Assembly: GCA_903834975.1 (NCBI GenBank)
Contig: CAILKX010000102.1
Span: forward strand, 1 to 34,596
Reading direction: 5' to 3'
DNA length: 34,596 nt
Origin: an uncultured Curvibacter sp.
GTDB taxonomy: Bacteria > Pseudomonadota > Gammaproteobacteria > Burkholderiales > Burkholderiaceae_C
The notes beneath the pieces are model-generated. The model was not told the origin of the DNA, searched no databases, and was given only the letters and a program-made list of their open reading frames with translations. The position numbers were made by a program, and so were the translations under genes. Each line of letters begins with the position of its first letter. The first letter of the stretch is position 1. Of the stretch, positions 1,231 to 18,026 are shown piece after piece.

Positions 1231-2699
1231 GCGGCAAGCCCATGAACTCCCTTCAACGCACCACGCCTTTTAATTTGCCCATCCGGGTCTTGCAGTTTGG
1301 GCAAGGTAATTTTCTGCGTGGCTTTTTCGATTGGCAAATCGACCTGTTGAACGAACGTTGTGGTTTGAATGCCGGGGTCGTAATTGTGCGTCCCACCTCG
1401 CGTTCAACGGCCCCGTTATTGGACAGTCAAGACGGCCTGTACACCACCGTGGTTCGTGGTTTGGACGAACAGGGGCAGGCGGTACAAAACCACCGCCTGA
1501 TCACTTGCGTGCAACGCGAGCTGGACCTCAGCCACCACATGGCAGATTTTTTGTTGCTGGCCCAAAATCCCGACATTCAGTTCGTGGTTTCCAACACCAC
1601 CGAAGCCGGTATTGCCACCAATACCCAAGATCAATTCAGTGATGCACCGCCAAGCGCTTTCCCCGCCAAGTTAACCCGTTGGTTGTATGCGCGTTTTGAG
1701 CACTTTGCCGGTTCTGCCGCATCAGGCGTGGTGTTGTTGCCCATGGAGCTGATTGACCACAATGGCGACGCCCTCAAAGCGGCTGTGTTGTTTTTCGCAA
1801 AGCGCTGGGACTTGGGTTCTGGCTTTGAAAATTGGCTGCAAACAGCCTGTGTCTTTTGCTCGACACTGGTCGACCGCATCGTGCCGGGTTTCCCCGCCGA
1901 TGAAATGCCAACACTGGAAACCGAACTCGGCTACCGCGACCCCTTCTTGGTGACCACCGAGTACTACCACTTGCTGTTGATTCAAGGGCCCGCCAAAGTG
2001 GCTGAATGGCTCAAGTTGCCAGGCTCGGGTTTGAACATTCATCTGGTTGATGACATTGCCCCCTACAAATTGCGCAAGGTCGGCATTTTGAATGCAGGCC
2101 ATACGGCCATTGTGCCACTCGCCTTGCTGGCAGGGCTCAGCACCGTGGGACAGGCCATGAAAGACGAGCCCGTCGCGGCGTTTTTAAAGGGCCTCTTATT
2201 TGATGAGGTCATTCCAACGCTGCCCTTACCTGCAGAGGAGTTGAACGAGTTTGCAAACGAGGTCTTACGGCGCTTTGGCAACCCCTTTATCCAACACCGA
2301 TTGGCCTCCATTGCCTTGAACAGCTGGTCTAAATTTGCGGTCCGGGTGATGCCGCAGATGCGTCAGTTTCACCAATTGCAGGGCCATTGGCCGCCCCACA
2401 TGGTGCTGGCCTTGGCCGCCACCATGCACCTCTACAAAGGCGAGTTGATTGCTTTGTCTGATGAAGCCGCTCACCTCGAATGGTGGAAAACCGCCTGGGA
2501 GCGGTTTGACAGTGGCGAGCTGAGCGCACGCGACATGGTCAGCACGTGGATGGCCAAAAAGAATGTGTGGGGCGACGTCTTGTCGCTGCATGAAGATTTG
2601 ATCGAAGCCATCACCCAGGATTTGGTGATGCTTCAAAACCAGGGCGCCCGAGAAGCGCTCAAGGCAACCCATTCCAGCGGTGCGGTCGTCGCTGCTTGA
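1227..2699 (+). CDS. uxaB: Tagaturonate reductase (mannitol dehydrogenase-like family)
   Basis: RVLQFGQGNFLRGFFDWQIDLLNE N-terminal nucleotide-binding motif and KLRKVGILNAGHTA motif. GTG start overlaps the uxaA stop; an ATG at 1242 is an alternative start. Confidence 0.88.
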   Translation: MSGKPMNSLQRTTPFNLPIRVLQFGQGNFLRGFFDWQIDLLNERCGLNAGVVIVRPTSRSTAPLLDSQDGLYTTVVRGLDEQGQAVQNHRLITCVQRELDLSHHMADFLLLAQNPDIQFVVSNTTEAGIATNTQDQFSDAPPSAFPAKLTRWLYARFEHFAGSAASGVVLLPMELIDHNGDALKAAVLFFAKRWDLGSGFENWLQTACVFCSTLVDRIVPGFPADEMPTLETELGYRDPFLVTTEYYHLLLIQGPAKVAEWLKLPGSGLNIHLVDDIAPYKLRKVGILNAGHTAIVPLALLAGLSTVGQAMKDEPVAAFLKGLLFDEVIPTLPLPAEELNEFANEVLRRFGNPFIQHRLASIALNSWSKFAVRVMPQMRQFHQLQGHWPPHMVLALAATMHLYKGELIALSDEAAHLEWWKTAWERFDSGELSARDMVSTWMAKKNVWGDVLSLHEDLIEAITQDLVMLQNQGAREALKATHSSGAVVAA

Positions 2700-2730
2700 A
2701 TTTTTTTATCTTACTAAAGGAGTCGTTAAT

Positions 2731-5541
2731 ATGAAAAAGAACTTGAGACAATCACAACACCTGCTGTCCGCAGTCGGCATGGCGGTGTTGGGCCTTTGCT
2801 CGCAGGCCCAGGCGCAAGACGCTGCCTTGGAGCGTGTTGAAGTCACGGGCTCCAGCATCCGTCGCGTGGAAAATGAAGCCGCTTTGCCGGTCAGCGTGTT
2901 GAAGGCCGAAGACTTCACCAAGGCCGGCATCACGACCTTGGGCGACTTGCTGCAAGCCTTGCCGCAAGCCCTGTCCTTGCTGCCTTCTAATGCCGGCGCA
3001 GGCACCATCATCAACTTGCGTGGTTTGGGTTCCAACCGCACCTTGGTGTTGTTGAATGGCCGTCGTTTGTCCAACGAGCCGACCTCGGATGGTTTGGCCA
3101 ACATCGACATCTTGCCCATCAGCGCATTGGAGCGTGTCGAAGTTTTGAACGACGGTGCGTCGTCAACTTATGGCTCTGACGCCATCGCCGGTGTGGTCAA
3201 CTTCATCACCAAACGCCAATACCAGGGCGTTGAAATTTCGGGCCAAGCTGGCAAACCCCAACACAGCGGCGGTGGCAATGAGCAAGGCTTCAACATCACT
3301 GCGGGTACGGGTGATTTGAACAAAGACGGCTGGAACGTTTACGCCACTTTTAATCACCATCAAAAAGCCTTGTTGCTTGAAAAAGACCGCCCCATGTTGG
3401 GTCAGGGCAGCCCAGCGGCGACCAGCGTGGGTTCATCGGGTTACGGTAACCCTGCCAACATCAAGGTCGGCAGTGCTTATTACAACCCCTATGGGTCAAC
3501 AGGTTGCACCCCGGGCTATACAGGCGCCACCAGCGGCAACAGCTTGGGTGGATGCATTGTCGATCCCAACGCCTACAACGTGGCATTGTTCCCCAACCAA
3601 CAAGAAAACTTTTACACCAAGGGCACTTTAAAGATTTCGGCTGACCACACCCTGTCAGCTGAGTACAACCGGGGTCAGACTTGGATCGACAGCTTGAAGA
3701 ACCCGGCGACTTCAGCAGGTTCTGGCTCTACTTTCAACGCCTTGGCCGGTTCTGCTTTGCCCGCCAATTACCCCACTTCAGTGCCTGCCTTCACCATCAC
3801 CACAGCCAGCCCTTGGTTCCCCGGCGGTACAGGTGGCGTACCTGCTATTTCCGGTCTTTCGGCTGCTGCGACCAATAAAACCGCTTACACGCTGTTGTGG
3901 TCGGCTCCCGGCGGTTTGGCTGAGCAAATTGACACCCAGCTCAACCAACGTTTTGTCTTGAACGACCAAGGCCGTTTGGAGGGCTGGGATTACAAGGCTG
4001 GATTTGTTGCAGGCTCGTCTGACCGCACTGTTTCAGCCGCACACAATGTTTTTGATGGCTCCTTGTTGCAACAGGGCTTTTTGAACGGATCGATCAACCC
4101 CTTCTCTGCCACTCAAAATGCCACGGGTCAAGCGGCTTTGGATGCAGCACGTCTCGACGGTCAAGCGGTTCGCCGCGCGCGCACCACCATCACCGGTGTG
4201 GATGCCCAGGGTAGCCGTGAGTTGATGGATTTGGACGGGGGTCCTTTGGCTGTCGCATTGGGTGCCAATGCTTTGCATGGCACCTTCCACGACCAGAAGT
4301 TGGCTGCCGGTCAGTACTCGACTTTTGGTTACACCGCGCCCACGCTGGCGGGTGATAACCGGAATGTTTTGTCGGCCTTTGCTGAGTTGAACGCCCCCGT
4401 GACCAAAGAGTTGACGATCAATGGCGCGGTGCGTGACGACCACTACAGCGACGTGGGCAACACCTTCAACCCCAAGCTGAGCTTCCGCTTCCAACCTTCG
4501 CAAGAAGTGATTTTCCGTGGTGCCGCCAGCACCGGTTTCCGCGCGCCCAGCATGAATGACTCGCATGGCTACTCAACCCCAGGTGCGACGAACACCGCCG
4601 GTATTGCCATCAACGACCCCTTGCTGTGCCCCAACGGTGTGCCGCAAACCACTTTGTCGGGTTACAACTCAGGCAGCACGACCCAAGGGACCAACTATTC
4701 TTCTTGCGCGACGACCACCATCAATGGCACGACCAAGAGCAACAACTTGCCGACCCGCACCAGTTCCAATCCTTTGTTGAAACCAGAAACCTCCAAGACC
4801 TTCACCTTGGGCGTGGTTTTTGAGCCTGCCAAGGATTTGAACCTGTCGTTCGACTACTGGCACATTGGCATGAACAACGTGATCAATGCGTTGCCCATGA
4901 CCGCCGTGGCCGCCAACCCAGCTGCGTATTCCAATTTGTTCGTGCGTGATGCCAACAACAACTTGTTGTACATCAACAACGTGACGGCCAACTTGGGTTC
5001 TTTGCGCGAGTCGGGCATCGACGTTACCAGCAACTACCGCTTCCTGGTCCCCGAAGTGGGTCAGTTTGGCATCGGTCTGGACGGCACTTATTTGCTCAAC
5101 TTTGAAAACCAAGTCACGCCTGGCGCGGCTTGGGTCAACAACGTGGGTCAATTCGGTAACGTCACCAACGCGCCGATCGCCAACTCACCCACGCTGGGTT
5201 TCCGCTGGAGACATAACCTCCACGCCGACTGGACCAACGGCGCATGGACCACCCGTGTCACCGAGTTGTTCACCTCCAGCTACCTGGACCAAAACACCTG
5301 CACCGGCGTGACTGTGAATGGTGTTTCGTGCTCGAACCACACGATTCCTTCGTACTCCTTGGTCAACCTGAGTGTGGCTTACAGTGGCATCAAAGACCTC
5401 ACTTTGATTGCGGGTGTCAACAACGTGTTCAACCGTTTGCCACCCGCCACCAACTCGAGCACCTACAGCAACGGTTACGTCAGCAGCAACGCCAGCCCCT
5501 TGTTGCGTTCGTACCTGATGACGGCCACCTACCGCTTCTAA
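2731..5541 (+). CDS. TonB-dependent outer-membrane receptor
   Basis: ATG at 2731 after an AAAGGAG ribosome-binding site; signal peptide; plug domain (VEVTGSSIRR...LGDLLQALPQ...INLRGLGSNRTLVLLNGRR...VEVLNDGASSTYGSDAIAGVVNFITK); C-terminal aromatic YRF. Confidence 0.93.
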   Translation: MKKNLRQSQHLLSAVGMAVLGLCSQAQAQDAALERVEVTGSSIRRVENEAALPVSVLKAEDFTKAGITTLGDLLQALPQALSLLPSNAGAGTIINLRGLGSNRTLVLLNGRRLSNEPTSDGLANIDILPISALERVEVLNDGASSTYGSDAIAGVVNFITKRQYQGVEISGQAGKPQHSGGGNEQGFNITAGTGDLNKDGWNVYATFNHHQKALLLEKDRPMLGQGSPAATSVGSSGYGNPANIKVGSAYYNPYGSTGCTPGYTGATSGNSLGGCIVDPNAYNVALFPNQQENFYTKGTLKISADHTLSAEYNRGQTWIDSLKNPATSAGSGSTFNALAGSALPANYPTSVPAFTITTASPWFPGGTGGVPAISGLSAAATNKTAYTLLWSAPGGLAEQIDTQLNQRFVLNDQGRLEGWDYKAGFVAGSSDRTVSAAHNVFDGSLLQQGFLNGSINPFSATQNATGQAALDAARLDGQAVRRARTTITGVDAQGSRELMDLDGGPLAVALGANALHGTFHDQKLAAGQYSTFGYTAPTLAGDNRNVLSAFAELNAPVTKELTINGAVRDDHYSDVGNTFNPKLSFRFQPSQEVIFRGAASTGFRAPSMNDSHGYSTPGATNTAGIAINDPLLCPNGVPQTTLSGYNSGSTTQGTNYSSCATTTINGTTKSNNLPTRTSSNPLLKPETSKTFTLGVVFEPAKDLNLSFDYWHIGMNNVINALPMTAVAANPAAYSNLFVRDANNNLLYINNVTANLGSLRESGIDVTSNYRFLVPEVGQFGIGLDGTYLLNFENQVTPGAAWVNNVGQFGNVTNAPIANSPTLGFRWRHNLHADWTNGAWTTRVTELFTSSYLDQNTCTGVTVNGVSCSNHTIPSYSLVNLSVAYSGIKDLTLIAGVNNVFNRLPPATNSSTYSNGYVSSNASPLLRSYLMTATYRF

Positions 5542-5568: not shown

Positions 5569-6459
5569 ATGAATGCCTATACAAAAAGGGATTGGTTGAC
5601 CGGCTTGATATCGGTGTGGCTCTGGGCGTTTTCAACAACGGCTTGGGCTTCACCGCCTCATTTGTCACCCATCCAAGTGATCTTGGTGGGTGATTCCACT
5701 TTGGCGCCCAAGAATGGTTACGGCGATGCCCTGTGTGCCCGCTTTGTGCCCCAAGTGAAGTGCATCAATTTGGCCAAAAATGGCCGCAGCTCGGGCAGTT
5801 ACCGTGCAGAAGGATCTTGGCAAAGTGTGCTGGACTTGTTGAAGCAAGCCCGAGGGACACTGCCAACTTATGTCCTGATTGAGTTCGGGCACAACGACCA
5901 ACCCGGCAAACCCGGACGATCCACCGATTTGGTGACAGAATTTCCCCGCAACCTCAGCCGCTATGTGCAAGAGGTCCGCGCTTTGGGCGGCCAGCCTTTG
6001 TTGGCCACGCCTTTGACGCGTCGCAATTTCAAGGGCGACCAATTGGTCCACGATTTAGAACCCTGGGCCGATGCCACGCGCCAAGTTGGGTTGGAAGAAA
6101 AAGTCCCTGTGCTTGAATTGCTACAAGTCAGCTCAGCGGCCATCCAAACCTTGGGCCATGCACAGGCGGATACCTTGGCTGTTGAACCGCCCCCGGCGGC
6201 ACACCAGATTGAAATTCAAGGCAGCTCACAAGAGACGAGCGCATCAGGGGTCATAGGTGCCTCAGGCAAGTCAAGTGCCTCAGTCACCTCGGCCAAGGTG
6301 GACTTGAACCAACTCGAGCCTGTCAGCCCCCAAAAAAGCGCCTTTGATCACACCCATGTGGGGCCCATAGGAGCGGCTTTTTTTGCAGAACAAATGGAAG
6401 AACTGATGCGGAAAACCTTGCCTGAGTGGCCACCCTATTTTCAAATTCAAAAGCCATGA
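5569..6459 (+). CDS. Rhamnogalacturonan acetylesterase-like SGNH hydrolase (CE12-type)
   Basis: SGNH blocks VGDSTLAPKNGYG, NLAKNGRSSGSYRAEGSW, IEFGHNDQPGKPG and C-terminal DHTHVGPIGA; N-terminal signal peptide; sits in a pectin locus. Confidence 0.85.
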   Translation: MNAYTKRDWLTGLISVWLWAFSTTAWASPPHLSPIQVILVGDSTLAPKNGYGDALCARFVPQVKCINLAKNGRSSGSYRAEGSWQSVLDLLKQARGTLPTYVLIEFGHNDQPGKPGRSTDLVTEFPRNLSRYVQEVRALGGQPLLATPLTRRNFKGDQLVHDLEPWADATRQVGLEEKVPVLELLQVSSAAIQTLGHAQADTLAVEPPPAAHQIEIQGSSQETSASGVIGASGKSSASVTSAKVDLNQLEPVSPQKSAFDHTHVGPIGAAFFAEQMEELMRKTLPEWPPYFQIQKP

Positions 6460-9176
6460 ACTTCCCCTTTTTGTGTGGCCGTGCGGTGTTGGCTTTGGCT
6501 TTGGCTTTGGGCTTTTTGTCCCTGGGCGCCCAAGCCCAAGATTCTAGAAACGTCACGGAGCCCAAAGTGCCTCCCGCCTGTGACGTTTTGGTGGCACAGG
6601 CCACAGGACCATTGCAAAAAGTCGATGACGATCAAGTCCGCATTCAACGGGCCATTGACCGTTGCCCGTCCGGACGGAGCGTCTATTTGGTTCAGAGCAA
6701 TGAACAAAATGCCTTCACCTCAGGCCCATTGCAATTAAGAACTGGCGTGACCTTGGTGGTGGATGCGGGGGTCACGCTGTACGCCAGCACCGACCCCAGT
6801 CGTTACGACCGGGGTGCACAGACCTGTGGAACGGTAGGCAAAAAAGGGCATGGTTGCCACAATTTCATCACCGCACAAAACACCGCCAACAGCGGCATCA
6901 TGGGCAAAGGGACGATTGATGGCCAAGGCGGCCAGCCCTTGCAAGGGCAAAACGAATCTTGGTGGCAAATTGCGCGGCGCGCGCAACGTGAAGTGTCTGA
7001 GCACAATGTGCCTCGCTTGATCGAAGTCAACCAATCGAAAGAGTTCACGCTATATCAAATCAGACTGGCCAATTCGCCGAACTTTCATGTGACCTTGAAC
7101 AGCGTCGATGGCTTCACGGCATGGGGCGTTGTGCTGGACACGCCGGCAACCGCCCGCAACACCGACGGCATTGACCCCATCTCATCGCGCAACATCACCG
7201 TGACCCGTAGCTTCATTGCGACGGGCGATGACGGCGTGGCGATCAAGTCAAACGCCAGTGGACCCGCCGAAAAAATATCGATTATCGACAACCATTTTTA
7301 TAACGGTCACGGGATGTCGATAGGCAGTGAAACTTATGGTGGGGTTCGTGATGTGTTGGTCAGGCAATTGAGCATGGAGGGCAGCACCTCAGGCCTGCGC
7401 ATCAAAAGCAACGCGTCCCGTGGTGGGTTGGTCGAACGCATTCGCTACGAGCAAGTGTGCCTGCGCGATGTCAAAGTGCCCATTGATTTTTCCGCTTTTT
7501 ACAACAAAATTTCAAACGGCGACTTGCCCCCGATTTTTCAAGCGATCGAACTCGACACCGTCACCAGTTTGACGCCTGGCGATTTGACTTTGTTGGGTTA
7601 CAGCCCAGCCCTGCCGATTCAAGTTCAATTCAAAGACGTGTGGCTCACGGGGCAGGGACATCACCAAGTGATGAATGCACAAACGCAAGGCGTGATTCAA
7701 TTCAGACCCCTTCCGCCACTTGAATCTGGCCGTTGTGCGGGGCAATTTCCTTTATTTCCAAAGACACAAGCGCCGACGATTGGCCGTGTTGGCTCATCGG
7801 GCCAGCCCAGTGGGCGTCCCCAGTTAAGTGCAGCGCAAGCAGCGCACTTCAAATGGAGCGAGGTGATGTCCTATGCGGGTCTGCCCGGTCACGAGCAGCT
7901 GGACCCTTGGGATCCCCTTTCAAACGGCGTCGCAGACTTGAAAGTGATTCAGAAAGGGGTCGAGAAAGGGGCCGAGAATGGGGCTCAAGTTGACTATGTC
8001 GTCGAGGCGCTGAAATCAGGCAACAGTGCCTCAGCGAACACGAAGTCGGTTTTCAAAACCATTCAATCGGCGGTGAACCGAGCGGTTCAGGAGGCCAAAC
8101 TGACAGGGCGTCAGGCGCCCATCCGAATTCTGATTCAGCCAGGGCGTTACGAAGAAATTGTTTATGTGCCGGCCCTGTCTGCACCCATTTGGTTAATCGG
8201 CGCGGGCGCTCAACCCCAAGACACCGTCATCACCGCTTCATTAGAAGCCGCTGACTCAGGCGCTGAATTGACACGACGCCATGGCGCTGAATTCACTCAG
8301 GCCGATGCCGACATTCGCGCCATGTTTGACAGCCTCAAAGAGCGCCCCTTATTGACCACCTTTGGCTCCGCCACGGTGTGGACCCAAAACAGGGGTTTTC
8401 AAATGAAAAATTTGACGGTTGAGAACGCCTATGTTCGCCCGAATCCCATCCCCCCGGGCATGCACCAGGCGGTTGCTTTGATGGTGGACGGGGCCGATCG
8501 ATCGGTGTTTGACCAAGTGCGTTTGTTGGCGTTGCAAGACACCTTGTACCTCAAGGCCCGCGAAGGCGGTCGAACCTCGCGTTCATTCTTTGTCAACGCA
8601 TTCATCCAAGGCGATGTTGACTTTATATTTGGTGATGCAACGGCTTACTTTTACCGCTCCGAAGTCAAGACCTTGGGCAGTCGCGATCAAGCGTATGTGG
8701 CCGCACCCAGCACCCATTTGGATAGCCGTTACGGCTTTGTTTTTGACCAAGTTAATTTCACCCACGACGGCAGTCCCCTTGCTTTGCAGGGGCGCTATCG
8801 GTTGGCGCGTCAATGGTTTCACAACCAGAAATGCACGCCTTATGGCCCCATGTCGATCGAGTCCTATGCATGCCAACTGGCCAAGGCCGATGGGTTCAAT
8901 GGCTCGCAAGGGACGATTCGACCTGAAACCCTGAAAACCGTGGGCAAGGTGGTGGTCATGAACTCCCAACTCGGCGCCCATTTGAGTCCAACCCATCCTT
9001 GGGCCGATTGGAACCAACGAGGCAAGCTGACCTTTCGACCTGCTCAATTTGACCGAGACGGTTTCCTGAAAAACCTTGAGCAGGCTTATCCCAACGAAGA
9101 TCTAAGTTGGGTTGGTACCAACCCAGACCCCACGGCCGCCATTTTTTTGGCCGAATACCAAAATCAGGGACTTTGA
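6456..9176 (+). CDS. Bifunctional polygalacturonase (GH28) - pectin methylesterase (CE8) fusion, secreted
   Basis: N-terminal half has GH28 motifs NTDGIDP, ATGDDGVAIKS, GHGMSIGSE and LRIKSN. C-terminal half has CE8 motifs PGRYEEIVYV, QAVALMVDGADR, LQDTLYLKA, GDVDFIFGDATAYF and ARQW. Signal peptide starts at MNFPFLCGRAVLALALALGFLSLGAQAQ (ATG 6456). Confidence 0.9.
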   Translation: MNFPFLCGRAVLALALALGFLSLGAQAQDSRNVTEPKVPPACDVLVAQATGPLQKVDDDQVRIQRAIDRCPSGRSVYLVQSNEQNAFTSGPLQLRTGVTLVVDAGVTLYASTDPSRYDRGAQTCGTVGKKGHGCHNFITAQNTANSGIMGKGTIDGQGGQPLQGQNESWWQIARRAQREVSEHNVPRLIEVNQSKEFTLYQIRLANSPNFHVTLNSVDGFTAWGVVLDTPATARNTDGIDPISSRNITVTRSFIATGDDGVAIKSNASGPAEKISIIDNHFYNGHGMSIGSETYGGVRDVLVRQLSMEGSTSGLRIKSNASRGGLVERIRYEQVCLRDVKVPIDFSAFYNKISNGDLPPIFQAIELDTVTSLTPGDLTLLGYSPALPIQVQFKDVWLTGQGHHQVMNAQTQGVIQFRPLPPLESGRCAGQFPLFPKTQAPTIGRVGSSGQPSGRPQLSAAQAAHFKWSEVMSYAGLPGHEQLDPWDPLSNGVADLKVIQKGVEKGAENGAQVDYVVEALKSGNSASANTKSVFKTIQSAVNRAVQEAKLTGRQAPIRILIQPGRYEEIVYVPALSAPIWLIGAGAQPQDTVITASLEAADSGAELTRRHGAEFTQADADIRAMFDSLKERPLLTTFGSATVWTQNRGFQMKNLTVENAYVRPNPIPPGMHQAVALMVDGADRSVFDQVRLLALQDTLYLKAREGGRTSRSFFVNAFIQGDVDFIFGDATAYFYRSEVKTLGSRDQAYVAAPSTHLDSRYGFVFDQVNFTHDGSPLALQGRYRLARQWFHNQKCTPYGPMSIESYACQLAKADGFNGSQGTIRPETLKTVGKVVVMNSQLGAHLSPTHPWADWNQRGKLTFRPAQFDRDGFLKNLEQAYPNEDLSWVGTNPDPTAAIFLAEYQNQGL

Positions 9177-11005
9177 TGCAACGACGAGATTTTTTAGCCG
9201 CGGCAAACGCGTCTGCCCTTTGGGCTTCTGGTTTGGCACTGGGGGCCAACCCCATCACCGCAACGGCGCAAACGATAACGCAAACGAATCCATTGGATCC
9301 TTGGCAAGCAGCGGCTGACATCGTGGCGCGGCTCAGCAAGCCCACCCCGTTCAGAGACGAAGACTTTGAAGTCACCCGTTTTGGTGCCAAGCCTTGCGAA
9401 CTCACCTCCGTGATGGGCTTCATTGGGCACCATGAAAAAGCCCTGCAAAAAACACCGGTGCCAGGCTCATTTGACTGCTACCCAGCCTTTGCCAAAGCCA
9501 TTCAGACTTGCCACGAAAAAGGGGGCGGTCGTGTCGTGATTCCGGCCGGGACTTGGTATTGCGCTGGCCCCATCGTGCTCTTGTCGCACGTGCATGTGCA
9601 TTTGAAAGCAGGCGCGCAGGTCTATTTCAGTAACCAACCGGAGGACTATGCCAAGTATGGTCAGTACGCGTGCGGTCCGCGCGGCAATTTGGTGAGAACC
9701 CGTTGGCAAGGCAATGACTGTTTGAATTTTGCCTCCATGATTTATGCCGATGGTCAAGAACACATTGCCCTGACCGGCGAAGACTGGACCAGCATTCTGA
9801 ATGGCCAAGGCGGCATGCCGATGGGCCCGGGGCAAGGGGCTTGGTGGTCTTGGAAAGGCAATGGATCCGCGGGGAGCGATCAACCCTTTTGCGACAGCCC
9901 CAACTCGCTGAATGAGAATACCTTGGCGGTTTTGGCTCCTAATTTGTCGGTTGAACAAAAGGCGATGATTTTGGGTGAAGGCCGTCGTTGGATGGCCGAC
10001 GAGTATTTTTTGCCAGTGCTCTCTGAGGCCGGTGTCGAGCCGCTCAAGCGGGTGTTTGGTCTGGGGCACTATTTGCGCCCCGCCATGATTCATTTGTTGG
10101 ATTGCAAAGACGTCTTGCTGCAAGGCTACCAAGTCACCAACACGCCTTTCTGGCAACACCATCCCGTGAATTGCCACGGTTTGGTGATCCGCGGTGTGCA
10201 CGCCAACAGCCTGGGGCCAAACAGCGATGGTTTTGACCCCGAGTCATGCACCCAAGTCTTGGTTGAAAAATGTTTATTCGACACCGGCGATGACTGCATA
10301 GCGATCAAAGCGGGCAAAGATTTAGACACTCAATTCGGGCCTACCCGAGACATCGTGATTCAAAACTGCACCATGCACAGCGGCCACGGTGCGGTGACTT
10401 TGGGCAGTGAGATGGCCGCCGGTATCGAGCGGGTTTTTGTGCAGGACTTGTTGATGGAAAACAGCCATTGGCAGACCAACCCCTTGAACACCGCGATTCG
10501 TTTGAAAACCAACATGAACCGCGGTGGCTATTTGCGTCATTTTTATGTGCGCCGCATTCAATTGCCCAATGGGGTTCAAACCACGCCGTCCTTTTACAGC
10601 TCATTGCCTGGCTCCCCGTTGCGCACCCGCACCGTGGCTTCGGCTGCTGGGGCGGTGATTACTTTTGACTGCGACTATGCACCCACCAAGGACACGGTGC
10701 GAACCCGTCGACCGCAGGTTTCGGAGGTGCACATTTCTGAAGTCAAGGTGGGGGATGTCGTGAAAGACGGCGTCAAAGCCTCTTGTTACCAAGCCTTTGT
10801 GTTGTTGGGGCCGGTGCCGGCCAGTTTTAACGGAAGTCCCGGTGATGCGGAAATTTTCCCGATCCGAAATGTGACCATTTCTGAGTGTGATTTCGGCCAC
10901 CCAGCGAATGTAGCCAACCCCTATTTTTTGTTCAATGCTCAGGCCATCCAACTCAAAAATGTTCGCATTGGTGAGCAGGTCCTGAACACCGTTTTATCGG
11001 CTTGA
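9176..11005 (+). CDS. GH28 glycoside hydrolase (exo-polygalacturonase-like) with Tat-type signal
   Basis: MQRRDFLAAANASALWASGLALGA twin-arginine leader; GH28 motifs NSDGFDPES, DTGDDCIAIKAGKD, GHGAVTLGSEMAAG and IRLKTNMNRGG. Confidence 0.88.
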   Translation: MQRRDFLAAANASALWASGLALGANPITATAQTITQTNPLDPWQAAADIVARLSKPTPFRDEDFEVTRFGAKPCELTSVMGFIGHHEKALQKTPVPGSFDCYPAFAKAIQTCHEKGGGRVVIPAGTWYCAGPIVLLSHVHVHLKAGAQVYFSNQPEDYAKYGQYACGPRGNLVRTRWQGNDCLNFASMIYADGQEHIALTGEDWTSILNGQGGMPMGPGQGAWWSWKGNGSAGSDQPFCDSPNSLNENTLAVLAPNLSVEQKAMILGEGRRWMADEYFLPVLSEAGVEPLKRVFGLGHYLRPAMIHLLDCKDVLLQGYQVTNTPFWQHHPVNCHGLVIRGVHANSLGPNSDGFDPESCTQVLVEKCLFDTGDDCIAIKAGKDLDTQFGPTRDIVIQNCTMHSGHGAVTLGSEMAAGIERVFVQDLLMENSHWQTNPLNTAIRLKTNMNRGGYLRHFYVRRIQLPNGVQTTPSFYSSLPGSPLRTRTVASAAGAVITFDCDYAPTKDTVRTRRPQVSEVHISEVKVGDVVKDGVKASCYQAFVLLGPVPASFNGSPGDAEIFPIRNVTISECDFGHPANVANPYFLFNAQAIQLKNVRIGEQVLNTVLSA

Positions 11006-11012
11006 GGTTTGC

Positions 11013-11807
11013 ATGACTTTTCAAACGCTTCGCTCGGAGGAGAGGGCGATCAATTTACAATCGACGACCATGAAACCCAGCGGTCGTCAACCCAGAAGCC
11101 CATCGAAAGATTTGGTCGCCAACGCGGCTCAACGTGCGTATCAACTGATTCGCCAGCGCATCTTGGATTTGACCTTGGAGCCCGGCCAACGCATTTCCGA
11201 GCACGATCTGGCCGCTGAAATGGGCCTGAGCCGAACCCCCGTCCACCAAGCGGTTCAACGGCTGGCCGATGAAGGTTTGATTGAGATTTTTCAGCGTGTG
11301 GGCACCTTTGTGGCCCGCATCCCGATCAATGGGTTGGAAGAAGCCATGCTGGTGCGCACCGCGCTGGAGGTGGCGGTGATTGAACGCGTGGCGGATCGCG
11401 CCACCCCTGAGGTCATGACCCATTTGAGAACCATTCTGGAAAAGCAACAAAAATGCGTGGTCCAGATGGATTACCAAGGCTTCCACCAAGCAGACGAAGA
11501 GTTCCATTCCGCTTTGGCTGACATTGCCGGTTTCCCAGGCATTTGGGCCACCATCCAGCAAGCCAAAATTCAAATTGACCGTTTCCGTCACTTGACGCTG
11601 CCTTTGGCAGGTCGCATGGAGGGCGTGGTGCATGAGCACACCGAAGTGGTCAATGCATTGGCTTCCGGCAAAGGGGCTCTGGCGGCAGCCGCCATGCGGG
11701 CGCATTTGGGCCATGTGCTGCCCGTGGTGGAAGTGACGCGGGCTTTCCGCCCTGAGTTCTTTGTGAACCGCACACCCAACGATTCTTCTTTCCCCAGCGC
11801 ATCATGA
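11013..11807 (+). CDS. GntR-family transcriptional regulator, FCD (FadR-like) C-terminal domain; ATG 11070 is an alternative start
   Basis: Winged helix-turn-helix AYQLIRQRILDLTLEPGQRISEHDLAAEMGLSRTPVHQAVQRLADEGLIEIFQRVGTFV followed by FCD-like AMLVRTALEVAVIERVA...DEEFHSALADIAGF...EHTEVVNALASG. Confidence 0.9.
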   Translation: MTFQTLRSEERAINLQSTTMKPSGRQPRSPSKDLVANAAQRAYQLIRQRILDLTLEPGQRISEHDLAAEMGLSRTPVHQAVQRLADEGLIEIFQRVGTFVARIPINGLEEAMLVRTALEVAVIERVADRATPEVMTHLRTILEKQQKCVVQMDYQGFHQADEEFHSALADIAGFPGIWATIQQAKIQIDRFRHLTLPLAGRMEGVVHEHTEVVNALASGKGALAAAAMRAHLGHVLPVVEVTRAFRPEFFVNRTPNDSSFPSAS

Positions 11808-12802
11808 ATTTGACGTTTTCCAGGCCCGGTCGGGCCCAGCCCCTTTTGGTGGCGGTGGGTGAGTGCATGATTGAATTGCGCAACACCGGTTCAGCGAGCA
11901 TGACTCGGGCCTACGGGGGTGACACCTTGAACACCGCCGTTTACTTGGCACGTTTGGGGCAAAGTCCATCTCAAACCCCCACTCATTACCAAGTCGGCTA
12001 TGCCACCGCCATTGGGTCTGAGGATCCCTACAGCGACGAGATGTTGGCCGCCTGGACGGCAGAACACCTCGACACCCGTTTTGTGAACCGCCCGCCCAAC
12101 CGCTTGCCGGGTATGTACACCATCACGGTGGACGAGCAAGGGGAGCGGCAATTCCATTACTGGCGTCAAAACAGCCCCGCCCGTGACTATTTCAATGAAG
12201 GCCCCAGCTTGTTAGAGCAAGGCTTGGCCGAGGTCGATGTGCTGTATTTGAGTGGCATCTCTCTGGCCATTCTGCCCCCTGAAGGACGTCAACGTCTTTT
12301 CAAGGCCATGGCGGCTCTGCGTGCGCAGGGCGGCAAGGTGGTGTTTGATAACAACTACCGCCCCCGACTCTGGGCCTCGGTTCAAGAAGCCCAGGCGGCT
12401 TATGCTCAAGCCTACGCCTGCGCTGATGTCGCCTTGATCACCTTGAATGACGAACAGGCTGTTTGGGCCGAGGACGGTGAAGGGGCCAGCGAGGCGCAAA
12501 TCTTGGCTCGTGTCCAGGCTTTATCCAATGCCGGTTGTGCGGAAGTGGTGGTGAAGCGGGGAGCGGAGCCCACCTTGTTGTTTTTAAACGGTCAAGCACC
12601 GCTGGCCATCCCGACTCAACGGGTCCCCAAAGTGGTCGATACCACGGCAGCAGGCGACTCATTTGCTGCGGGTTATGTGTCAGCACGCCTCAAAGAAAAA
12701 GCACCGCATGAAGCGGTGCTTTCAGGGAATTTGTTGGCCTCTGTGGTGATTCAACACCCCGGGGCCATCATTCCTTTGACGGCAATGTCCTCGGGGCTGT
12801 GA
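11804..12802 (+). CDS. kdgK: 2-dehydro-3-deoxygluconokinase (PfkB-family sugar kinase)
   Basis: PfkB signatures VAVGECMIELRN, GGDTLNTAVYLARLG, FDNNYRPRLW and VVDTTAAGDSFAAGYVSARL; ATGA overlap with the regulator; galacturonate-pathway context. Confidence 0.88.
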   Translation: MNLTFSRPGRAQPLLVAVGECMIELRNTGSASMTRAYGGDTLNTAVYLARLGQSPSQTPTHYQVGYATAIGSEDPYSDEMLAAWTAEHLDTRFVNRPPNRLPGMYTITVDEQGERQFHYWRQNSPARDYFNEGPSLLEQGLAEVDVLYLSGISLAILPPEGRQRLFKAMAALRAQGGKVVFDNNYRPRLWASVQEAQAAYAQAYACADVALITLNDEQAVWAEDGEGASEAQILARVQALSNAGCAEVVVKRGAEPTLLFLNGQAPLAIPTQRVPKVVDTTAAGDSFAAGYVSARLKEKAPHEAVLSGNLLASVVIQHPGAIIPLTAMSSGL

Positions 12803-12824: not shown

Positions 12825-14177
12825 TTATAAGACGACGTGGCCTGAGATCAGCGTGGGCAGCCAGGTCGAGAACATGGGCACATAGGTCACCAAGTTGATG
12901 GCGGTGAAAATCGCCAAGTAATAGGGCCAAGCGGTTTTGGTGGCTTGGTCGATCGAGATTTCACCAATCGCACAGCCTACGAATTGCACGGTCCCCACCG
13001 GCGGATGGACCAAACCCAGCGCGCAGTTCAAGAGCAACATCATGCCGAATTGAACGGGGCCCACGCCCATCTGAATCGCCAATGGCAAGAACAGGGGCGT
13101 TGTGATCAAGATGTGCGCCGCCATGTCCAAGAAGATGCCCAAGAAGACCTGAATGATGTTGATGTACAACAGCATCAGCCAGGGCGTTTGTGTGGCGGTT
13201 AACAAGGCGCTTTCAATGGCCTCAGGGATTTCCAGATTGGCCATCTGCCAGCGCAGCATGTTGGAGACGCCGATCAGCAACAAAATCACGCCCGTGGTTT
13301 TGGCCGCTTTGCCCAACGACAACTTGATCTTGCTCCAAGACATCGTGCGGTAGACAAAAGACGTCAAGAGCAAGGAATACGTGACCGCAATCGCTGCGGC
13401 TTCTGTGGCGGTGGTCACCCCGCCCATCACGCAACCCAAAATCACCGCAATGACGCCCAAGCCGGGCAGGGCGGCAATGAAGGTGCGCAAGACAGTGCCC
13501 CAACCCGGGAAGACTTCCAGCATGGAGCTGCCATCAGCCCGTTTGGGGAAGCCTTTGACGCGGGCTTGCCAGTATGCAGCAATCAGCATGCAGACCATGA
13601 TCCAAAATACGGGGATCAGGCCGGCAAACATCAAATCACCAATGGACACGCCTTTGATGGTGTGTCCATCAATCACGCCCACAGCGGCTTGCGCGGCGAA
13701 GGCATAGATGATCATGTTGTGCGAGGTGGGCATCAACGCGCCGGTCAATGAAGCGTGGGTGGTCACGTTCACGGCGTAGTCAGCGCTGTAGCCTTCCCGC
13801 TTCATGACCGGAATCATGACACCGCCCATGGCCGAGGTGTCGGCCACGGGCGAGCCCGAAACACCGCCAAACAACGTGCTGGCCACCACGTTGGCCAAGC
13901 CCAAACCACCGCGAAGGTGGCCGACCATGCTGCGGGCGAAGTCCAAAATTTTGTCGGCGATGCCGCCGTGCAACATCAGTTCACCCGAAAAGATAAAGAA
14001 GGGAATGGCCAAGAATGAAAACACATTCATGCCCGACACCATCATTTGAATGGCCGTCTCAAAGGGCAGGCCTTCCACAAAGAAGGTGGCAATGCAGCTC
14101 AAGCCAATGGCAAAAGCCACGGGCACACCCATGACCAAAAAGAGCAAAAAGCTCAAACAGAGTACGGTAAGTTCCAC
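12825..14177 (-). CDS. dctM: TRAP transporter large permease (DctM family)
   Basis: FLLFLVMGVPVAFAIGLS, GGVSGSPVADTSAMGGVMIPVMKREGY, TTPLFLPLAIQMGVGPVQFGMMLLLNCALGLVHPPVGTVQF. Probable GTG start at 14177 directly after the dctQ stop; the track ORF extends to 14234. Confidence 0.93.
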   Translation of the reverse strand: MELTVLCLSFLLFLVMGVPVAFAIGLSCIATFFVEGLPFETAIQMMVSGMNVFSFLAIPFFIFSGELMLHGGIADKILDFARSMVGHLRGGLGLANVVASTLFGGVSGSPVADTSAMGGVMIPVMKREGYSADYAVNVTTHASLTGALMPTSHNMIIYAFAAQAAVGVIDGHTIKGVSIGDLMFAGLIPVFWIMVCMLIAAYWQARVKGFPKRADGSSMLEVFPGWGTVLRTFIAALPGLGVIAVILGCVMGGVTTATEAAAIAVTYSLLLTSFVYRTMSWSKIKLSLGKAAKTTGVILLLIGVSNMLRWQMANLEIPEAIESALLTATQTPWLMLLYINIIQVFLGIFLDMAAHILITTPLFLPLAIQMGVGPVQFGMMLLLNCALGLVHPPVGTVQFVGCAIGEISIDQATKTAWPYYLAIFTAINLVTYVPMFSTWLPTLISGHVVL

Positions 14178-14178
14178 T

Positions 14179-14673
14179 TTAAGATTCCAGTGAAGGTTCG
14201 GTGGCTTGCCAATCGATCGCCAAAATGTGCTCAATCGAGAACAGCGCGATCAGGAAAGAGGCAAGGGACAAGGGCAGGTAGCGGAAGGCCTCAGAGATGC
14301 CCAAGGTGGGAATTAAATCGTGCAAGGTGGAGTGCCCCATTTGGTAGCTGCCCACCAGCAAAATCAATCCAAAGCCCAAGCCAATCAGATCGACCAAGAG
14401 CGTCATTACCCGCTTTGAACGGTGGGGCAACATTTTGATGACGGAGTCCAATCCAATGTGACCGCCATCGCGGGCACCCGAAGCGGCTCCAAACATGGCC
14501 ACCGAAATGACCAAAATCAGAGCCACTTGCTCAATGTAGGGTGGGGCATCGTTGAAAGCGTAGCGCATGACCACACCAAAGATCACCGCCAACCCCAACA
14601 GGGCCAAAGACAGCCGAGCCAGGTTCAAAGACAAAGCAGAAAGGCTGGCACACAAGCGCTGAAAAGTCGCCAT
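14179..14673 (-). CDS. dctQ: TRAP transporter small permease (DctQ family)
   Basis: Four-TM small protein with VVMRYAFNDAPPYIEQVALILVISVAMFGAASGARDGGHIGLD, between dctP and dctM. Confidence 0.9.
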   Translation of the reverse strand: MATFQRLCASLSALSLNLARLSLALLGLAVIFGVVMRYAFNDAPPYIEQVALILVISVAMFGAASGARDGGHIGLDSVIKMLPHRSKRVMTLLVDLIGLGFGLILLVGSYQMGHSTLHDLIPTLGISEAFRYLPLSLASFLIALFSIEHILAIDWQATEPSLES

Positions 14674-14683
14674 CTCAGTCCCC

Positions 14684-15679
14684 TTATTTGGCGTTGACCA
14701 CTTCTTGCACCAAGGCCTTCAACTCAGGGGTGGTGGCGAATTTGTCCCACACTGGTTTTTCAACCGCGACAAAACCTTTGTGGTCGATTTCTGAAGCGGG
14801 AACGATCTTCACACCGGCTTTGACCAACGCCTCTTTGGAAGACTTCTCTTTGGCTTCCCACAATTGGGTGTAGTAAGGCACCGACTTCTTAGCAGCGTCT
14901 CGCAAAGAGGCTTGTTCTTGGGGCGTCAAAGTGTCCCAAATTTTCTTGGAAAAAACCAAGACTTCAGGCGACATCATGTGCTGGGTTTCAGAAAACACAT
15001 TGGCGGTTTCGAAGTGTTTGGATTCTTCATAAGAAGGAAGATTGTTTTCAGCACCGTCGATTAAGCCCGTCTTCATGCCCGTGTAGACCTCGGCGTAGGG
15101 CATGGGGGTTGGAGACGCACCCAGCACTGAAATGAAGCTGACCGACAAATCAGAAGGTTGAACCCGTATCTTCAGGCCCTTCATGTCGGACACGTTTTTG
15201 ATGGGTTTCTTGCTGTAAATCGAGCGGGCACCGCTTTCATAAAAAGCCAGGCCAATAAAACCTGCCTTTTCGAATGAGGCCAAAATTTTGTCGCCAGTCG
15301 GCCCATTCATGGTGCTGCGAAAGTGGTTAACGTCTCTGAAAATAAAGGGCAACGAGGGAATCTGAGACGCAGGTACGATACCGTGAAAAGCAGAAACGTT
15401 TGAGCGAACCATGTCCAGCGCGCCGATCTTGACCTGCTCGATGGTGTCTTTTTCAGAACCCAGGGCGCTGTCTGAGAAGACCTTGACCGAGTCCTTTCCA
15501 TTGGAGGCCTTTTTCAGTTCTTCACCCATGTAGACCACGGCTTTGTTCGTCGGGTAGTCTTTGGCGTGCACGTCGGCAGAGCGGAAAGTGCGGGCTTGAG
15601 CCAGTGAGCCACAAACGCAAAGAGCCAGCATCGTGGCCAAACCCAGAGCAGATTTGAAGGGGGGTAAAGTCTTGGTCAT
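14684..15679 (-). CDS. dctP: TRAP transporter periplasmic substrate-binding protein (DctP family)
   Basis: Signal peptide; DctP motifs SDSALGSEKDTIEQVKIGALDMVRSNVS, MKGLKIRVQPSDLSVSFISVLGASPTPMPYAEVYTGMKTGLIDGAENNLPSYEESKH. Confidence 0.93.
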   Translation of the reverse strand: MTKTLPPFKSALGLATMLALCVCGSLAQARTFRSADVHAKDYPTNKAVVYMGEELKKASNGKDSVKVFSDSALGSEKDTIEQVKIGALDMVRSNVSAFHGIVPASQIPSLPFIFRDVNHFRSTMNGPTGDKILASFEKAGFIGLAFYESGARSIYSKKPIKNVSDMKGLKIRVQPSDLSVSFISVLGASPTPMPYAEVYTGMKTGLIDGAENNLPSYEESKHFETANVFSETQHMMSPEVLVFSKKIWDTLTPQEQASLRDAAKKSVPYYTQLWEAKEKSSKEALVKAGVKIVPASEIDHKGFVAVEKPVWDKFATTPELKALVQEVVNAK

Positions 15680-15910: not shown

Positions 15911-17101
15911 CTATTTTGACAGCAGTCGCATGGCTTCTTCGAGGCCACGCAGGGTCAGGGGGTACATGCGCTGCGCCATGAGTTGTTGAATCACGGCGAT
16001 GCTTTGTCGGTATTGCCAGACACCTTGGGGTTCGGGGTTGATCCAAGCAAATTTGGGGAAGGCATTGGTTAAGCGTTGCAGCCACTCGGCGCCGGCTTCG
16101 GCGTTGTTGTATTCGACACTGCCCCCGGGTTGCAAAATTTCATAGGGGCTCATGGTCGCATCGCCAATGAAAATCAACTTGTAGTCTTTGTTGTATTTGC
16201 GAATGATGTCCAAGGTGGAAAATTTTTCGGCAAATCGGCGTTTGTTGTTTTTCCACATGAAGTCGTAAACGCAGTTGTGGAAGTAATAAAACTCCAAGTG
16301 TTTGAACTCGGCTTTGGCGGCAGAAAACATTTCTTCCACGCGGGCAATGTGTTCATCCATGGTGCCACCCACGTCCATCAACAGCAACACTTTGACGTTG
16401 TTGTGGCGCTCAGGAATCATCTTGATGTCGAGCCAGCCGGCGTTGGCGGCGGTCGAGCGGATGGTGTCGGGCAAATCGAGTTCTTCGGCCGAACCTTCAC
16501 GCGCAAATTTACGCAAACGTCGAAGCGCCACCTTGATGTTGCGGGTGCCCAGTTCTTGGCTGTCGTCGTAGTCTTGATAGGCGCGTTTGTCCCAAACTTT
16601 AACGGCGCTCTTGTTGCGGCTTTTTTCTTGGCCGATGCGAATGCCTTGCGGGTTGTAGCCATTCGCACCAAAGGGGCTGGTGCCGCCGGTGCCGATCCAT
16701 TTGGAGCCGCCTTCGTGGCGTTCTTTTTGTTCTTCAAAACGCTTCTTCAGCGTTTCCATCAACTCATCCCAACCCAGCTTGTCGATCTTGGCTTTTTCTT
16801 CGGGGCTGAGTTCAAGCTCCAAATTTTTGCGCAACCACTCCAGGGGCACTTCTTTGGTGAAGTCGGCAATCAGCTCCACGCCTTTGAAATAAGCACCAAA
16901 AGCGCGATCAAATTTGTCGAAGTGCTTTTCGTCCTTGACCATCGTGGTGCGGGCCAAATAGTAAAAGTCGTCGATCTTGAAGGCGTCGTCGGAATTCGGC
17001 CCGACCACGTTGGCTTTCAAGGCCTCGAGGAGCACCAAAAATTCCTTGACGGACACCGGCAACTTGGCCGCACGCAGGGTGTAAAAAAAGTCAATCAGCA
17101 T
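15911..17101 (-). CDS. VWA-domain (CoxE-like) protein
   Basis: MLIDFFYTLRAAKLPVSVKEFLVLLEAL N-terminus, KVLLLMDVGGTMDEH VWA core, IFIGDATMSPYEI. Downstream of a MoxR ATPase on the same strand. Confidence 0.85.
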   Translation of the reverse strand: MLIDFFYTLRAAKLPVSVKEFLVLLEALKANVVGPNSDDAFKIDDFYYLARTTMVKDEKHFDKFDRAFGAYFKGVELIADFTKEVPLEWLRKNLELELSPEEKAKIDKLGWDELMETLKKRFEEQKERHEGGSKWIGTGGTSPFGANGYNPQGIRIGQEKSRNKSAVKVWDKRAYQDYDDSQELGTRNIKVALRRLRKFAREGSAEELDLPDTIRSTAANAGWLDIKMIPERHNNVKVLLLMDVGGTMDEHIARVEEMFSAAKAEFKHLEFYYFHNCVYDFMWKNNKRRFAEKFSTLDIIRKYNKDYKLIFIGDATMSPYEILQPGGSVEYNNAEAGAEWLQRLTNAFPKFAWINPEPQGVWQYRQSIAVIQQLMAQRMYPLTLRGLEEAMRLLSK

Positions 17102-17121
17102 GGATCAAGGGGCTCTTGAGT

Positions 17122-17985
17122 TCAGCGATTGCGCTGGTTCATGAAGACCAGTTTTTCGAACAAGGTCACGTCTTGCTCGTTTTTCAGCAAAGCCCCAACC
17201 ATCGGCGGCACGCTGACTTTGTTGTCGGTGGATTGCAATGCCTCGAGCGGAATGTCTTCGGCCACCAGCAGTTTAAGCCAGTCCAATAATTCGGAGGTGC
17301 TGGGCTTCTTCTTCAAGCCGGGCAGGTTGCGCACGTCATAAAAGGTCTTCATGGCGGCGCTCAACAACTCGGATTTGAGGCCAGGGAAGTGCACATCCAC
17401 GATTTGCTTCATGGTGTCGGCTTCGGGGAACTTGATGTAGTGGAAGAAGCAGCGGCGCAAAAAGGCGTCGGGCAGCTCTTTTTCATTGTTGGACGTGATG
17501 AACACCAAGGGGCGTTGCTTGGCGCGAATCAACTCGCGGGTTTCATAGCAATAAAACTCCATGCGGTCGAGTTCACGCAGCAAGTCGTTGGGGAATTCAA
17601 TGTCGGCCTTGTCGATTTCGTCGATCAGCAGCGCAATCGGTTCTTCCGAGGTGAAGGCTTGCCACAACACGCCCTTGACGATGTAGTTGTGAATGTCTTT
17701 GACCCGCTCACCGGTGTCGGAGCCGGCCACCATCGACATTTGGGAGTCTCTCAAGCGACTGACGGCGTCGTATTCATAGAGCCCTTGTTGGGCCTTGGTG
17801 GTCGACTTGATGTGCCATTGCAACAGGGGCATTCCCATGGCGGCCGCGACCTCCTCGGCCAACATGGTTTTGCCCGTACCAGGTTCGCCTTTGACGAGCA
17901 AAGGGCGCTTCAAAGTCATCGCGGCGTTGACGGCCAGCATCAAATCCTGGGTGGCGACGTAGTTTTGTGAGCCATTAAATTTCAT
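17122..17985 (-). CDS. MoxR-family AAA+ ATPase
   Basis: Walker A VKGEPGTGKTMLAEEVA, Walker B ALLIDEIDKAD, EFPNDLLRELDRMEF. Likely start MKFNGSQNYVATQ at 17985. Confidence 0.92.
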   Translation of the reverse strand: MKFNGSQNYVATQDLMLAVNAAMTLKRPLLVKGEPGTGKTMLAEEVAAAMGMPLLQWHIKSTTKAQQGLYEYDAVSRLRDSQMSMVAGSDTGERVKDIHNYIVKGVLWQAFTSEEPIALLIDEIDKADIEFPNDLLRELDRMEFYCYETRELIRAKQRPLVFITSNNEKELPDAFLRRCFFHYIKFPEADTMKQIVDVHFPGLKSELLSAAMKTFYDVRNLPGLKKKPSTSELLDWLKLLVAEDIPLEALQSTDNKVSVPPMVGALLKNEQDVTLFEKLVFMNQRNR

Positions 17986-18026
17986 GGAAAGGGCTTTTTC
18001 AGTGTTCAAGAGGGTCAATCGATTTA

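Follow-up and report, generated by a model that had tools for sequence, protein, structure and literature searches.

A GH28–CE8 fusion protein, probably an exported bifunctional pectinase, in a pectin-utilisation locus of a Curvibacter-related bacterium

PmeC5 of Butyrivibrio fibrisolvens combines a CE8 domain with a PL9 pectate lyase in a chain of 2089 aa (PMC12109409). The open-licence literature was searched by title and abstract for a GH28–CE8 protein; none was announced there, the terms GH28-CE8 and CE8-GH28 were unmatched, and the many described homologues of the same architecture that the first-pass annotation had allowed for were not found. Because GH28 and CE8 are both well-known families, the fusion described here is an incremental finding of modest novelty.

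The window (the whole stretch of DNA that was analysed, 34,596 nucleotides) is the entire contig C102 of a freshwater-type bacterium related to Curvibacter. One uninterrupted frame (6456–9176, forward strand) encodes a 906-residue protein in which a complete N-terminal GH28 polygalacturonase domain is followed in the same chain by a complete C-terminal CE8 pectin methylesterase domain. The single chain of about 906 residues with this domain order, as first proposed, was thus borne out by the open frame and by Pfam matches for both families. The features of the locus are as follows.

10–2699, forward: altronate dehydratase (5′ end truncated) and tagaturonate reductase (PF20629, PF04295; NF002969, 577 bits against a cut-off of 359)
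2680–5541, forward: TonB-dependent receptor, likely an oligogalacturonide importer (PF00593, PF07715; syntenic in relatives)
5569–6459, forward: GDSL-family esterase, putative pectin/rhamnogalacturonan acetylesterase (PF13472, E = 1.4e-9; weak PaeY match; syntenic)
6456–6539, forward: predicted signal peptide of the fusion, about residues 1–28 (...LGAQA/QDSR), general secretory type, read by eye from the translation
6540–7727, forward: GH28 domain, predicted endo-polygalacturonase, residues 29–424 (PF00295; 1BHE; Foldseek)
7728–7811, forward: variable linker, about residues 425–452 (about 28 aa; dN/dS, indels among homologues, low pLDDT)
7812–8045, forward: N-terminal extension of the CE8 module, residues 453–530 (RPQLSAAQA...DPWDPL...DYVV; NF models and stand-alone relatives)
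8046–9176, forward: core and C-terminus of the CE8 pectin methylesterase, residues 531–906 (PF01095; alignments to 4PMH, 3GRH and 1QJV)
9176–11005, forward: second GH28, exo-polygalacturonase/galacturonidase-like (PF00295, E = 3.7e-17; BT4155-type model, E = 2.8e-55, under its cut-off)
11013–12802, forward: GntR/FCD regulator and KDG kinase-like PfkB kinase (PF07729, PF00392, PF00294)
12825–15679, reverse: TRAP transporter DctM, DctQ and DctP, possibly for galacturonate (PF06808, PF04290, PF03480)

Judged by these genes, the neighbourhood is a pectin/galacturonate utilisation locus; the remainder of the window is ordinary chromosome. The ATG of the fusion overlaps the stop codon of the upstream GDSL gene (CCATGA) and its own stop codon shares bases with the start codon of the next GH28 gene downstream, at 9176 (TGATG), and because of these overlaps the three genes are probably translationally coupled. 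With its Tat-like start, MQRRDFL, the downstream exo-GH28 may be exported by another route than the GH28 of the fusion. The KDG kinase-like PfkB protein matched NF052444 with E = 1.3e-104 and 350 bits, just below the cut-off of 400. The altronate dehydratase (10–1230) has lost its 5′ end at the contig edge, the GDSL esterase carries a Ser/Ala-rich and probably disordered insert (about residues 205–260) right before its DHTH motif, and an AAA ATPase and VWA/CoxE-like pair (15911–18018, reverse strand) adjoins the TRAP transporter. In the genome, which is 97.7% complete, the fusion is the sole CE8 match, and just one GH28 gene exists besides it; no PF00544 pectate lyase was found there, and the type II secretion secretin GspD was present over its cut-off. 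On these grounds the fusion is probably the main homogalacturonan-attacking enzyme of the organism.

At the N-terminal end the AlphaFold model has a helix at residues 6–22, and the start of the mature fusion lined up with mature PehA ('DSRTVSEPK') in the phmmer alignment to 1BHE. The signal peptide as read agrees with the predicted export of a GH28 plus CE8 protein; it precedes the GH28 domain, and inspection by eye found no lipobox cysteine in the N-terminus of the fusion and hence no outer-membrane lipoprotein signal of the PemB kind. In the Pfam check proposed earlier both halves scored over the curated cut-offs, the first with PF00295 over residues 115–405 (E = 6.4e-55, 186.9 bits against 22.9) and the second with PF01095 in two stretches, the best covering residues 633–771 (E = 4.4e-27, 95 bits against 27). 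The motif sets named in the first-pass annotation were likewise in place, at residues 235 (NTDG), 257 (GDDG), 284 (GHGM), 315 (RIK), 671 (QAVAL), 694 (QDTLY), 722 (DFIFG) and 784 (ARQW). All 12 of the 12 expected active-site residues were present, and they were invariant in six aligned fusion proteins.

The closest solved structure to the GH28 half was PehA (1BHE; 337 bits over residues 29–409 in phmmer), on which the model superposed in Foldseek with a TM score of 0.96 by target length and an r.m.s.d. of 1.6. Alignment to 1BHE gave the catalytic set D237, D258, D259, H285, R315 and K317, i.e. the three Asp, the His and the Arg-x-Lys, and from this nearest relative we infer an endo mode of action. 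For the CE8 half the nearest solved structures were 4PMH (E = 6e-30) and YbhC 3GRH (E = 2e-27) in phmmer, and the nearest curated NCBIfam models were of the PemB/YbhC type; it reached neither the PemB equivalog NF041901 (152.5 bits against a cut-off of 700) nor the YbhC equivalog NF007822 (207 bits against 436). Being below the NF041901 cut-off, it is regarded as PemB-like and not as PemB.

Membership of the PemB/YbhC branch raises the question of whether the CE8 half is dead, or another hydrolase, and serves for binding or anchoring: in E. coli YbhC, H replaces the first Gln and N the nucleophile Asp (the PemA Asp178 position). In PemA, Gln153, Gln177, Asp178, Asp199, Arg267 and Trp269 are the binding and catalytic residues (PMC10530356), and in the alignment to 1QJV the fusion retains, unlike YbhC, the complete corresponding set Q671, Q694, D695, D722, R785 and W787. 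The Arg/Trp pair stands in ARQW where GRPW is usual, which counts against the bifunctional reading. These six residues were invariant in nine proteins (six fusions and three stand-alone relatives), and the CE8 core is under purifying selection (below). A dead, YbhC-like CE8 half was rejected on the intact active site and we regard it as very improbable.

The segment of about 100 residues between the two domains (about residues 429–528), which had been singled out in the first-pass annotation, proved to be for the most part a normal CE8-type N-terminus from about residue 453 onwards; what stood of the claim was a variable linker of about 28 residues (425–452). The alignment of NF007822 begins at residue 452 and that of NF041901 at residue 454, and the RPQLSAAQA...DPWDPL stretch, or close variants of it, opens the stand-alone CE8 proteins of a Burkholderiaceae MAG (L040), Pseudoduganella rivuli (L041) and Pelomonas sp. 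KK5 (L043) soon after signal-like segments. In a comparison of the window with the Curvibacter MAG L035 (93% DNA identity), dN/dS was 0.105 for the GH28 domain, 0.099 for the CE8 core and, over its 28 codons, 1.26 for the linker; purifying selection acts equally on the two halves (dN/dS about 0.10) and not on the linker. A special 100-residue middle domain was ruled out by the NCBIfam alignments, the stand-alone relatives and dN/dS. The pLDDT of the AlphaFold model was below 50 across residues 436–510, and the model consists of two separate beta-helices, matching 1BHE and 4PMH/3GRH by Foldseek, whose relative orientation is not fixed at a pTM of 0.50.

The same one-frame fusion, here termed type A, was found at eight further loci with 49–93% identity: in the Curvibacter MAG L035 (93%), the Rhodoferax MAG L037, Undibacterium curvum (L038) and Massilia sp. 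TS11 (L039), in the near-identical Burkholderiales MAG loci L036 and L042 and in two more genomes of the order (L044 and L045). Unfused adjacent GH28 and CE8 genes do occur in the genome G1079, the nearest unfused equivalent, where the CE8 gene lies about 200 bp downstream of the GH28 gene, and an assembly or frameshift error could in principle have merged two such neighbours in the window. This was ruled out by the single frame at the eight further loci, which include the isolates U. curvum and Massilia sp. TS11; between the window and L035, moreover, the linker and both halves remain in frame despite indels, and we give an artefact virtually no credence.

The genome survey ran from the family up to the phylum level and stayed within the phylum of the window. 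Type A was carried by two of 301 family-level genomes (the window's own included) and by two more of 399 order-level genomes, and by none of 369 class-level and 399 phylum-level genomes outside the order. Counted over the Burkholderiales sample of about 690 genomes, type A in four (own included) and the second type described below in one give about 5/690, which upholds the suspected rarity of the fusion in betaproteobacteria. The architecture is rare but not unique: four or more named genera or lineages carry it, and there is a second type of independent origin. A plasmid-borne, mobile type A was rejected, no plasmid record covering 80% of the query.

In this second type (type B) a GH28–CE8 chain carries a CE8 domain that belongs to a different branch of the CE8 tree, and by this placement type B arose independently of type A. 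The two loci are as follows.

L008, 1258–3690: type B, 811 aa, in one genome of the window's family
L086, 5923–8220: type B, on plasmid pAtAB2-73d of Rhizobium sp. AB2/73, beside repC

The two proteins are 50% identical; that of Rhizobium (WP_209160125.1, 766 aa) is annotated only as 'pectinesterase family protein', and an unannotated record of Agrobacterium sp. S7/73 holds the same match. Among plasmid records the full GH28–CE8 chain was found as type B only, on these Rhizobium/Agrobacterium plasmids. A scan of 298 genomes from the order to which G1079 belongs found no fused type B.

The order TonB receptor, GDSL esterase, fusion, exo-GH28 is conserved at the type A loci with enough sequence. 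In L040, L041 and L043 the GH28 half is absent at exactly its usual place in the locus and the stand-alone CE8 keeps its position beside the exo-GH28; in the genomes of L041 and L043 the GH28 matches were weak and exo-type, and no PehA-like GH28 was found. In the CE8 tree the fused Rhodoferax protein and L043 form a pair (100/99), and L040 and L041 lie among fused proteins; the GH28 halves of all type A fusions group together (94/94) in the GH28 tree. The trees are most simply read as a single fusion event, after which the GH28 half was lost at least twice, although the root and the internal branches of the group are weakly supported. In three genomes of another Burkholderiales family (f23; L047, L048 and L049) a PemB-like CE8 lies in frame behind a GDSL/CE12-like esterase, with the Pfam domains confirmed for L048. 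This is a second two-enzyme fusion drawn from the same operon neighbours, and fusion thus seems to recur in the slot upstream of CE8.

The fusion is likely to be a bifunctional exported pectinase in which CE8 demethylates and the tethered endo-GH28 cuts, with both activities, their order and the cell location predicted from sequence. The protein would be exported via its signal peptide, perhaps onward through the type II secretion system. The CE8 domain would strip methyl esters off homogalacturonan and the tethered PehA-like GH28 would next cleave the exposed galacturonate stretches internally; the oligogalacturonides would be imported via the adjacent TonB receptor and trimmed by the downstream exo-GH28, and breakdown would proceed through tagaturonate, altronate and KDG. 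The two beta-helices are independent and joined by a linker that is short and flexible, and the benefit would lie in proximity and fixed 1:1 co-delivery, with no shared active site.

The demethylate-then-cut order is plausible. As the CE8 half is of the PemB/YbhC type, below both equivalog cut-offs, its substrate could be oligomers, which leaves room for the reverse order: GH28 would begin by cutting stretches of low esterification, after which the PemB-type CE8 would demethylate the oligomers so released, in the periplasm or near the surface of the cell, for the exo-GH28 and the importer. In Dickeya, PemB is a lipoprotein of the outer membrane with a preference for methylated oligomers. The PemB and YbhC models are the nearest to the CE8 half, as are, among structures, YbhC 3GRH and 4PMH; the stand-alone CE8 also stays beside the exo-GH28 where no PehA-like GH28 was found. 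The fusion, however, is without a lipobox, PehA-like enzymes are normally fully secreted and a type II secretion system is present in the genome. We hold the reverse order to be possible, if somewhat doubtful.

The fusion is probably a compact (906 aa) natural pairing of two activities that attack homogalacturonan one after the other. Relatives that are unfused, fused to another partner or fused in an independent event provide natural controls, and any advantage of tethering a demethylesterase to a depolymerase is thereby open to direct test. It is tentatively suggested that the CE8 of Burkholderiales pectin loci may be a swap point (in one and the same operon slot alone, fused to an endo-polygalacturonase or fused to the neighbouring GDSL acetylesterase) that yields two-step 'pretreat and cut' enzymes, and that tethering might measurably speed up their action on natural high-ester pectin.

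Among known systems, PmeC5 is like the fusion a natural secreted chain that joins a pectin methylesterase to a homogalacturonan depolymerase; it differs in having a lyase and not a hydrolase as the partner, in its far larger size, in its adhesin-like domains and in its unrelated organism. The PehA endo-polygalacturonase of Pectobacterium (1BHE) resembles the fusion in the full-length GH28 alignment, the catalytic residues and the pattern of the mature N-terminus, but is a single-domain enzyme, whereas in the fusion the PehA-like GH28 precedes CE8. Proteins of the PemB/YbhC type (NF041901, NF007822; 3GRH) resemble the CE8 half, N-terminal extension included; the latter differs in scoring under the equivalog cut-offs, in not being a lipoprotein, in its fusion to GH28 and, compared with YbhC, in keeping the full active site. 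WP_209160125.1 of Rhizobium sp. AB2/73 shares the GH28-then-CE8 order with the window protein, its CE8 coming from another branch.
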